NCBI GenBank assembly: GCA_016931995.1
Contig: JAFGDS010000076.1
Location: forward strand, 1 to 64,000
Origin: Pirellulales bacterium
GTDB taxonomy: Bacteria > Planctomycetota > Planctomycetia > Pirellulales > Thermoguttaceae
Direction: 5' to 3'
Length of the DNA stretch: 64,000 bases
A program made the position numbers and the translations under genes. Positions 43,855 to 46,387 of the stretch are shown here, piece after piece. The notes under the pieces were generated by a model. It saw only the letters and a list, made by a program, of their open reading frames with translations, was not told the origin of the DNA and made no database searches. The first letter of the stretch is position 1; each line of letters starts with the position of its first letter.

Positions 43855-43941
<87 letters not shown>

Positions 43942-43956
43942 CTTCTTGTTACATAA

Positions 43957-43989
43957 GCACTTACGGTAGTTGCCGTGAGTGCTTTTTTT
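43957..43989 (+). terminator. Rho-independent terminator of tRNA-Leu
   Basis: GCACTTACGG (43957-43966), loop tagttg, CCGTGAGTGC (43973-43982), then TTTTTTT. Stem of 10 bp with one G-T pair. Confidence 0.88.
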
Positions 43990-44134
43990 GTGCCATCAGA
44001 CCAAGGACTGCCGACCCCTTTGGCCCACCCCATTGGGTGGTTCTTTGGCAACGAGCCCTAGACTACACCTTGTGCGGAGAGCGCAAGGCAGCGGGCGTCT
44101 TTCGTGCCGCGATCGACCAACGCCGCCAAATGCT

Positions 44135-44208
44135 GTTGACAAAACCACCGATGAATGGTAGTATTGTCAACGTTGACGAAATACTATTCACGAGCACAAT
44201 TAGTCAAC
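44135..44208. promoter_or_regulatory. Symmetric operator array
   Basis: Central 12-bp palindrome GTCAACGTTGAC (44166-44177, dyad centre 44171.5). Outer hexamers GTTGAC (44135-44140) and GTCAAC (44203-44208) lie at exactly plus and minus 34 bases from that centre, and an imperfect arm pair TAGTATT (44159-44165) and AATACTA (44180-44186) flanks the core. It overlaps -35, -10 and the transcription start, so binding would repress. Binding by the XRE protein is inferred. Confidence 0.7.
44136..44164 (+). promoter_or_regulatory. Sigma-70-type promoter of the XRE-ImmA gene
   Basis: TTGACA (44136-44141), exactly 17 bases, TAGTAT (44159-44164). -35 is perfect consensus, -10 matches at 4 of 6. It precedes the GTG at 44232 by about 60 bases, with AAGGAGG (44217-44223) as ribosome site. 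One of the clearest promoters in the window. Confidence 0.75.
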
Positions 44209-44231
44209 AGGCGGGGAAGGAGGGTATTCGC

Positions 44232-45464
44232 GTGATTGCCGACCGAATCAGACAAGCCAGACTCGCCGCGGGGATGACACAGGACGAGGTGGTCCAGCGT
44301 TTGGCAAGCGCCGGGCATCCGATCACTAAGGCCGCCTTGTCAAAATACGAAAAGAGGAAAAGCGAACCGAAACAAACGTTGTTGATCTTGTTGGGAAGGG
44401 CACTCGGCGTAAAACCGAGCTACTTCTTTTCCGAGCCAACACTGACCACGAATTGGCTTGCGTTCCGAAAACAGACCAAGCTGTCGAAAAGCAAACAGGA
44501 ACAGATCAAGGCTTATGCGGAGAAGGTCGTGGAGCATCAAGCATGGCTTCAGGCAACACTCTACCCCAGGCAAAAGCCGTTCTTCCCAAAACCCATGGAA
44601 GTTCGGTCGCCAGAGGACGCGGAAGCCGCTTCGCGGAGACTTCGAGGCGCATGGGAACTCGGAGATGCTCCGATTGATAGTCTCGTGGAAACGGTCGAAG
44701 ACAAGGGCGGCTTCGTTGTGGAATACGTCGAGTCGGGAATACAATTCGATGGCTTGTCGGGAAAAGCCGATGGGCGACCGGTGATTGTGGTGAATCCCGG
44801 CACCCAAATGGACCGGTGCCGCTACAATGTTGCTCATGAACTCGGGCATATCTTCACCGCTTGTCCGCCTCGGCTTTCCGAAAAGGAGCGGGAGTCCATT
44901 GCCCATCGATTCGCCGCGGCGTTGCTGGTTCCGGAGAAGGTCGCAAAGGAAGAGCTTGGAGAGAAGCGACGCCACCTTGATTTCGTCGAACTGGGGGTAT
45001 TGAAGCAGAAATACGGCCTGAGCATGCAGGCATGGATTCGGCGCGCCAAGGACCTGGAGATCATCTCGGGCAGCGTCTACAGATCACTGTGTATCGAGTT
45101 CAGTAAGCGAGGTTGCCGGCAGAGAGAGCCGGACCGCTACGACTACCACGGTCGCGAGAAGCCGAAGCGGCTCATGCAGATGGTCAGGCGTGCCGTTTCC
45201 GAAGGGATCGTCAGCCTCGACGACGCGAATCGGATGTGTCCTGAGTCTGGCGCCGACTCAATCGCTGTCGTCCACAAGATGGGAGAATCCACTTTGTCGC
45301 CAACCGAATTGCTGCGATTACCGCGATGTGAGCGCACTGCGATACTTGCCACCGCAGCGCTGCAGGCCGAGAAGGAATACCGGACCAACTCGGACCTGAC
45401 GGATTTCGATGCCTTCGGAGAAGATGACCTCCATGTCGAAGACTCCAGCACCAAAAAGAGGTGA
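44232..45464 (+). CDS. XRE-family regulator fused to ImmA/IrrE metallopeptidase
   Basis: 410 residues, cytoplasmic. Residues about 1-70 are an XRE helix-turn-helix (IRQARLAAGMTQDEVVQRLA, KAALSKYEKRKSEPKQTL, LLGRALGVKPSYFF). Middle and C-terminal part hold the ImmA/IrrE (COG2856) zinc peptidase domain with AHELGH at about 201-206 and a downstream Glu helix in ERESIAHRFAAALLVP. Such fusions act as regulators or antitoxins and can cleave repressors in phages and integrative elements. The GTG is chosen for AAGGAGG 8 bases upstream. Its 3' end overlaps the MazF-like gene by 32 bases, implying coupling. No small antitoxin is present. Confidence 0.9.
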   Translation: MIADRIRQARLAAGMTQDEVVQRLASAGHPITKAALSKYEKRKSEPKQTLLILLGRALGVKPSYFFSEPTLTTNWLAFRKQTKLSKSKQEQIKAYAEKVVEHQAWLQATLYPRQKPFFPKPMEVRSPEDAEAASRRLRGAWELGDAPIDSLVETVEDKGGFVVEYVESGIQFDGLSGKADGRPVIVVNPGTQMDRCRYNVAHELGHIFTACPPRLSEKERESIAHRFAAALLVPEKVAKEELGEKRRHLDFVELGVLKQKYGLSMQAWIRRAKDLEIISGSVYRSLCIEFSKRGCRQREPDRYDYHGREKPKRLMQMVRRAVSEGIVSLDDANRMCPESGADSIAVVHKMGESTLSPTELLRLPRCERTAILATAALQAEKEYRTNSDLTDFDAFGEDDLHVEDSSTKKR

Positions 45465-45792
45465 GGTTTGGGATGTCGATTTCGACCCTCCGCAAGGTGC
45501 GGAGATCGGAAAGACGCGACCGGCCATCGTAATCAGCGAAGACGTGATCGGGCGACTTCCGCTAAGAATCGTAGTGCCCGTTACGGATTGGAAGGCCGCA
45601 TACGCGAACTGGCCTTGGTTTGTCCACTTAGTACCCAGTTCGACAAACGGTTTATCCAAGGAGTCGGGGGCGGACGCTTTCCAGGTAAAGTCAGTTTCGG
45701 AGAGAAGATTTGTGAGACGACGTGGCGTGCTAGTGGCGGCAAGCGTGGATGACATCGCCGCCACCATCGCTATTTGCGTAGGTGCTCCGTAG
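45433..45792 (+). CDS. MazF/PemK-family toxin
   Basis: 119 residues. KRGEVWDVDFDPPQGAEIGK with TRPAIVIS is the PemK/MazF core (GKxRP with the catalytic Arg), followed by RIVVPVTDW (the conserved Thr of the VVP-T motif) and GLSKESGADAFQVKSV and RRRGVL. Endoribonuclease activity is expected by family. Start at the second ATG (MSKTPAPKRGEVW); another ATG lies 9 bases upstream. The usual partner is a small AbrB- or RHH-type antitoxin; here the overlapping upstream gene is a 410-residue XRE-ImmA protein. Toxicity is inferred. Confidence 0.87.
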   Translation: MSKTPAPKRGEVWDVDFDPPQGAEIGKTRPAIVISEDVIGRLPLRIVVPVTDWKAAYANWPWFVHLVPSSTNGLSKESGADAFQVKSVSERRFVRRRGVLVAASVDDIAATIAICVGAP

Positions 45793-45982: not shown

Positions 45983-46387
45983 ATGTCTCTGTTCCAATTT
46001 GTTGCGGCACTGGCTGTCGCTGCCCCGACCCTGGCTTTCGTCGCGAACGACGCAGATGAAGGCAAAGCCCCCGAGGCCCGAGCGGCTCGACGGGTGGTAG
46101 TCGTTTCTCAAGATGCCAAACCGTTCACGGTTGAGCCGCGGCAAATTGTCCGCCTCACCGCAAAGAGCGTCGCGGGATCGAAGATTGTCGCCCAGGTTGA
46201 CGGCCCGGCAAAGGTCGCAGCCGAAAACTCGGTCCTCACCGTAAAGGACGGCCACGTTCTGATCGGCATGGAGAGGGTGGAGTTCGTAATCAAGCCGACC
46301 GGAAAGGGGACGGTGACAGTGAAAATCACTACCACCTTCCTCAACAATCCGCCGACCGTCAAGACTTACGAATTCGAGGTCAAGTGA
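45983..46387 (+). CDS. Small exported beta-sandwich protein
   Basis: 134 residues. Signal peptide MSLFQFVAALAVAAPTLAFV, cut near AND. The rest (RRVVVVSQDAKPFTVEPRQI and VEFVIKPTGKGTVTVKITT) alternates hydrophobic residues as in an Ig-like sandwich. No family recognised; not a typical antitoxin. GGAGGAG lies before the ATG. Same strand as the toxin module but separated by hairpins, and followed by terminators. Confidence 0.7.
   Translation: MSLFQFVAALAVAAPTLAFVANDADEGKAPEARAARRVVVVSQDAKPFTVEPRQIVRLTAKSVAGSKIVAQVDGPAKVAAENSVLTVKDGHVLIGMERVEFVIKPTGKGTVTVKITTTFLNNPPTVKTYEFEVK

Follow-up and report, generated by a model that had tools for sequence, protein, structure and literature searches.

A MazF toxin module whose small antitoxin is predicted to be carried as the tail of an XRE-M78 protein under a promoter-embracing operator

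There are 4 lines of described systems against which this locus can be compared. In RosmerTA (RmrA plus the diverse RmrT toxins, the ImmA-domain node D25 of NetFlax) a protein with a helix-turn-helix (HTH) and an ImmA/M78 domain is also encoded beside a toxin gene, and the available text of its description associates several toxin folds with it, PIN included (PMC10440598). In 2009 Makarova et al. reported that XRE-COG2856 fusions share operons with the toxins RelE and PIN, and predicted a three-component toxin-antitoxin (TA) system (PMC2701414). The accessible portions of that survey take COG2856 as a toxin or a repressor-cleaving protease, do not name MazF for it, and describe neither a fused antitoxin tail nor an operator. 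They also give AbrB or RHH as the usual N-terminus of MazE-type antitoxins, in line with general knowledge. CapH-CapP, ImmR-ImmA and DdrO-IrrE/PprI pair an XRE repressor with an M78 peptidase and work by proteolytic derepression. PprI and CapP cut their XRE repressors once activated by single-stranded DNA (ssDNA) (PMC10904395).

The window is a stretch of 64,000 nucleotides from a Pirellulales bacterium, and the features of the module are collected in Table 1. The antitoxin gene comes first and mazF follows with a 32-base overlap, an arrangement shared by the relatives, and there is no intervening gene for a separate small antitoxin. The two genes are presumably co-transcribed. A second in-frame ATG at 45409 would lengthen the toxin to 127 residues, but the start at 45433 is the ATG kept in close relatives. 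ORF calls and Pfam confirm what a preliminary description of this DNA had claimed, a 410-residue XRE-M78 gene overlapping a PemK/MazF gene by 32 bases, and its view of the pair as a toxin module with an XRE-M78 partner is supported. The overlapping pair was sought in other genomes and is conserved at 14 loci, the one described here included, in Planctomycetota, Lentisphaerota, Kiritimatiellota, Chloroflexota, Bacillota and Vulcanimicrobiota.

Table 1. Features of the module and its surroundings (nucleotide positions count from the first base of the window; residues are those of the 410-residue protein)
Feature	Position	Strand	Remarks
tRNA-Leu(GAG)	43855..43942	+	module directly downstream
Operator unit 1	44135..44171	+	GTTGAC-N25-GTCAAC; left arm holds -35 TTGACA, right arm just past -10 TAGTAT
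Promoter TTGACA-N17-TAGTAT	44136..44164	+	consensus match only; equivalent position in relatives
Junction palindrome of units 1/2, GTCAACGTTGAC	44166-44177		single occurrence in window
Operator unit 2	44172..44208	+	GTTGAC-N25-GTCAAC; abuts unit 1 directly
Shine-Dalgarno AAGGAGG of XRE-M78 gene	44217..44223	+	from sequence; 8 nt before GTG
xre-M78-tail gene (P0001)	44232..45464	+	GTG start, 410 aa
XRE HTH	residues 3-65
Long helix	residues 86-110		AlphaFold model
M78 (ImmA/IrrE) Zn-peptidase	HELGH 202-206, E221		C-terminal helices until ~340, tail after
Predicted grafted small-antitoxin tail	45288..45434	+	residues ~353-401; helix at 365-385, acidic end predicted disordered
mazF/pemK toxin gene (P0002)	45433..45792	+	119 aa from conserved ATG

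The module resembles each of the described systems in part. Like MazEF/PemIK it has a MazF-fold toxin, the antitoxin gene first, overlapping genes and probable autorepression, but the DNA-binding part is an XRE-M78 body and not AbrB or RHH. Like the fusions of 2009 it has XRE and Zn-peptidase joined in one protein whose operon also encodes a type II toxin. It differs from RosmerTA in that the toxin is MazF and a small antitoxin appears to be fused beyond the RmrA-like part; the available text of PMC10440598 mentions neither. MazF here (P0002) has no PADLOC match and is not a described RmrT toxin, so we file the large protein as an RmrA-like body and not as a RosmerTA member. The CapH-CapP, ImmR-ImmA and DdrO-IrrE/PprI proteins are structural neighbours, but here repressor and peptidase are in one chain with a predicted toxin-neutralising tail, and cleavage is only putative.

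We argue that this is a type II TA module with a three-part antitoxin, namely an XRE autorepressor, an M78 Zn-peptidase and a MazF-neutralising MazE-like tail, and we put the probability of this reading at roughly 0.6. The N-terminal HTH would bind the GTTGAC-N25-GTCAAC arms around the -35 and -10 elements and so repress its own promoter. The middle domain would be a peptidase of the ImmA/IrrE/CapP-like M78 kind. The C-terminal tail, a helix with an acidic disordered stretch, would neutralise the MazF of the overlapping gene. A stress signal may activate the peptidase, ssDNA being the signal for the related PprI and CapP. The peptidase would then cut the repressor and/or split off the tail, so that the operon is derepressed and MazF freed in one event. 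Given how PprI and CapP are activated, the obvious hypothesis is that the XRE-M78-tail protein cleaves itself on DNA damage or phage attack. By this analogy the built-in peptidase would effect the release.

The operator carries the first part of this reading. GTTGAC lies at 44135 and 44172 and GTCAAC at 44166 and 44203. Both the placement of these hexamers, with outer centres exactly 34 bases on each side of 44171.5, and the TTGACA-N17-TAGTAT promoter are as originally described. The description saw one palindrome with two flanking sites. Two tandem 37-base inverted-repeat units are the better reading, but the junction between them is probably also read as a unit, since the inner arms always abut and covary mutually in L050 (ATCAACGTTGAT) and L132 (GTCTACGTAGAC). 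In part this bears out the palindrome of the original description. Two units are found at 6 loci (the window, L050, L022, L025, L132 and L133), directly abutting in every case. The junction palindrome was rejected as the basic operator, since half of the relatives do without it and have a single GTTGAC-N24/25-GTCAAC pair (L031, L027, L032, L043, L045, L047 and L135). The exact 34-base symmetry was likewise rejected as essential; it is not conserved, the spacer being N24 or N25.

The spaced hexamers are conserved upstream in the relatives, with the GTTGAC-N24/25-GTCAAC unit present at 13 of the 14 MazF-partnered loci across several phyla. GTTKAC/GTMAAC pairs spaced 30-32 were counted in upstream regions, with the expectation taken from dinucleotide shuffles. 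The main MazF group has the pair in 12 of its 13 upstream regions (0.045 expected), and the sister loci have it in 4 of 8 cases (0.01 expected). L135 is counted among the sisters with the operator, which gives the MazF-partnered total of 13. L034 is the MazF-partnered locus without it, and a clear operator is missing in 3 of the 7 PIN-partnered sisters. Only 1 of 54 distant RmrA-like genes has the pair, and so do none of the 20 upstream regions of non-XRE antitoxins of the same MazF subfamily (19 in the shuffle test plus L011). The arms covary, being GTTTAC..GTAAAC in L032, L058 and L134, and members with the GTTTAC arm tend to have a shorter loop ahead of the recognition helix, which is expected for direct recognition. 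Since the left arm contains the -35 and the -10 stands against the right arm, binding would block polymerase. Autorepression via the operator is probable. Half-sites 31 bases apart are unusual for one XRE dimer, and we count this against our explanation. Nor is the pattern a chance one: in the whole 5.43-Mb genome GTTGAC-N24/25-GTCAAC occurs only as the two adjacent units of the window and one match elsewhere, in GC-rich sequence. A regulon beyond the module was rejected, as apart from that match the genome has no further operator. At L022 the right arm GTCAAC, upstream of 1818, directly adjoins the start codon, and transcription there may give a leaderless message or begin elsewhere.

The body that would bind this operator matches Pfam HTH_3 (6e-10) and Peptidase_M78 (1e-8). 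The profile of RmrA, the RosmerTA antitoxin, matches residues 3-330 at 4.8e-50, and the CapP and CapH profiles match more weakly. One can therefore imagine that the module is mainly a RosmerTA-like phage defence, with MazF as an abortive-infection effector and phage, not general DNA damage, as the signal. Such a system would fit the anatomy we propose and depart from our reading in signal and role. Besides the RmrA match it has in its favour that RosmerTA systems defend against phage, according to the available text of PMC10440598, and that a patchy distribution, low GC and the tRNA-Leu site suggest mobility. XRE-M78 relatives are rare (10 of 100 relatives; 9 of 392 in the phylum at 1e-50). 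The GC content of the module is 0.54-0.59 against 0.65-0.74 around it. The synteny of a SpoIIE-domain gene and tRNA-Leu(GAG) is kept in 8 of 11 relatives examined, and a family search found no relative of P0001 in any of the genomes compared at this site. No 12-14-base copy of the tRNA-Leu sequence, as an attachment repeat would be, was found elsewhere in the window. The module looks like a mobile accessory module. However, no defence genes were identified beside it, and viral contigs yielded one MazF relative only. A mainly antiphage role is a possibility we take seriously without favouring it.

Two further observations concern this neighbourhood. The DNA behind the tRNA (43943-44130 in the window; L146-L155) is different in every relative examined, like an insertion hot spot. 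A short ORF past the module (45986-46387) has an exported-protein-like start and no Pfam family, and lies in the same low-GC stretch.

The main alternative to our reading concerns the peptidase. An AlphaFold model of the large protein (33-row alignment, mean pLDDT 91) has the HTH, the long helix, the M78 core and further helices up to ~340, followed by a linker of lower certainty at ~341-355 and a tail with a confident helix and an acidic, disordered end. In a fold search against the PDB, with modest E-values (best 1.4e-3), the peptidase matches IrrE, CapP and ssDNA-bound PprI, and the HTH matches ImmR with a TM of 0.86 on the target. Also among the fold neighbours are the M. tuberculosis XRE regulators 6cyy/6cz6. 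These are XRE-M78-like, and in XRE regulators an M78-type domain may have a sensor role. The M78 domain might then be a dimerisation or ligand-sensing body and not the switch, with MazF released as in ordinary modules, through host ATP-dependent proteases that degrade either the disordered tail or the entire antitoxin. The disordered end of the tail would suit this, being as in ordinary antitoxins, and L011, L018, L020 and others have the same tail with no peptidase. But H202, E203, H206 and E221 are invariant in all 33 diverse homologs, and an invariant HExxH with E221, which is probably the third metal ligand by analogy to IrrE, is hard to explain without catalysis or metal binding. We consider a non-switching M78 domain rather unlikely.

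The tail is the part that carries the argument for a three-part antitoxin. L011, from another family of the same order (G064), encodes a free antitoxin of ~70 residues that is 50% identical to residues 359-410. It overlaps mazF likewise, and its MazF is 64% identical to that of the window. For a non-circular test a profile made solely of this MazF subfamily's stand-alone antitoxins was run against 99 proteins picked by the XRE-M78 profile, a set that includes some stand-alone antitoxins because the XRE-M78 profile also contains the tail. The window protein matches at E=2.4e-22. The profile is significant in 12 of the 14 MazF-partnered XRE-M78 proteins, weakest in L135 (5e-4); L027 is marginal (0.14) and L032 is missed, although its end (LTAFEGADLEDLYEY) resembles the end of the tail. 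There is no match among the XRE-M78 proteins of this set that lack a MazF neighbour.

One common tail of ~45 residues is found upstream of the MazF relatives on at least 4 N-terminal types. It stands without an N-terminal domain in L011, L018, L020, L023, L016 and L017, a free form of 65-70 residues. It follows a short MSxxVxGVVTNGxV... domain in L019, L021, L024 and L026, a MerR/excisionase-type HTH_17 in L038 and L040, and other short domains at further loci. It sits on XRE-M78 in the window, L050, L022, L025, L027, L031, L032, L034, L043, L045 and L047, and also in L132, L133 and L135. Neither Pfam nor NCBIfam has a family for the tail, and the PDB contains no meaningful relative of it. Since the same tail is free or on other N-terminal domains, it would be the toxin-binding module and XRE-M78 an exchangeable regulatory body. 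By sequence homology the tail is the small antitoxin of this MazF, carried by the XRE-M78 protein itself, and its kinship with the free antitoxins makes it most likely that it binds and neutralises MazF. Separate production of the tail from an internal start is not favoured, as the alignment has no conserved start codon before it. At L028 (1971-3044) the MazF tail ends a long ORF whose N-terminal part is unidentified, a further architecture.

The preliminary description held that the metallopeptidase-XRE protein replaces the small antitoxin, so that the XRE-M78 body itself would neutralise MazF. The lack of an intervening antitoxin gene fits this, as does the pairing of RmrA proteins with very different toxins in the available text of PMC10440598. 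Yet by homology the small antitoxin has not been replaced but persists as the C-terminal tail, which is related to the free antitoxins found with this MazF subfamily and is missing from XRE-M78 proteins without a MazF partner. MazF homologs with another antitoxin, which that description named as evidence against its reading, do occur, but most of those antitoxins share the tail. Neutralisation by the body is very improbable.

MazF toxins are RNA-cutting enzymes. The product of the downstream gene matches PemK_toxin (PF02452, 2.8e-22) and was aligned to MazF9 structures. R37 is invariant and T59 nearly so, and we take these to be the catalytic positions. A scan of the genome collection with the window MazF gave 33 loci, mostly in Planctomycetota. 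One of them (L018:865-1242), preceded by a free tail antitoxin, has an internal stop in mazF and is apparently a broken copy. That the window's own locus is decayed or silent, with one part no longer working as in L018, is the least credible explanation of all, as both genes are intact, the catalytic positions are conserved and the promoter and ribosome site are intact. A second MazF of this genome, at L004 (G000:C134:13891-14214), is distant (38%), and the antitoxin upstream of it is an ordinary RHH-like protein of ~80 residues, with no XRE-M78 there.

The trees point to an exchange of partners during evolution. To account for the XRE-M78 state, the MazF tree needs 5-7 changes of partner, and well-supported branches force 2 or more of these. 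With the tail removed, the XRE-M78 tree places 21 proteins on one strongly supported branch. Of these, 14 have MazF and the other 7 a PIN-type neighbour, and 12 of the 14 form a supported branch of their own. The PIN assignment stems from weak Pfam scores for the 3 neighbours tested (one above the curated cut-off) and from LLISDANI-type starts for the rest. The PIN-partnered sisters lack the MazF tail. In several of them the C-terminal segment resembles UPF0175, with matches (1.5e-5 to 0.08) that fall short of the Pfam curated cut-off, and UPF0175 (COG2886) is a listed partner of PIN toxins in the available text of Makarova et al. 2009 (PMC2701414). On one body, then, the tail would follow the toxin. 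The parallel between PIN/UPF0175 and MazF/tail is suggestive, not proven. A distant XRE-M78-like gene of the same genome, L002 (G000:C89:35917-36426), is immediately followed by an ORF starting MSGRRCYVLDANVFIEAKNRYY, possibly a PIN-like toxin and another RmrA-like pair.

One can extend the three-part reading to a plug-in platform. A damage-sensing protease-repressor would take tails specific for MazF or, UPF0175-like, for PIN, and self-cleavage would couple derepression to loss of the neutraliser. The proposed body is nearly always under the same promoter-embracing operator. We offer this extension tentatively and think it unlikely in its full form.

The preliminary description called the module an undescribed regulatory system. 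This is too strong, since operons of XRE-COG2856 with toxins (PMC2701414) and RmrA (PMC10440598) are known even from the accessible parts of those papers. A literature search, with subscription papers and preprints outside its scope, found no paper joining ImmA IrrE, antitoxin and MazF. Papers naming Xre, COG2856 and MazF together are surveys, as far as their available text goes. Within that literature nothing appears to describe the MazF pairing, the grafted tail, a tail matched to the toxin on a common body, or the conserved operator that embraces the promoter.

Antitoxins of the XRE-M78 (RmrA-type) kind have to recognise very different toxins and have to be switched in some way. A grafted tail would explain the recognition directly, as an exchangeable C-terminal module that derives from the ordinary small antitoxin of the toxin. 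The same MazF subfamily also occurs with the bare tail, so a comparison of the two forms would show what the protease-repressor body adds. The promoter-embracing operator is a DNA signature for finding more such modules. If the plug-in design is true, it would turn an ordinary TA pair into a protease-triggered one.
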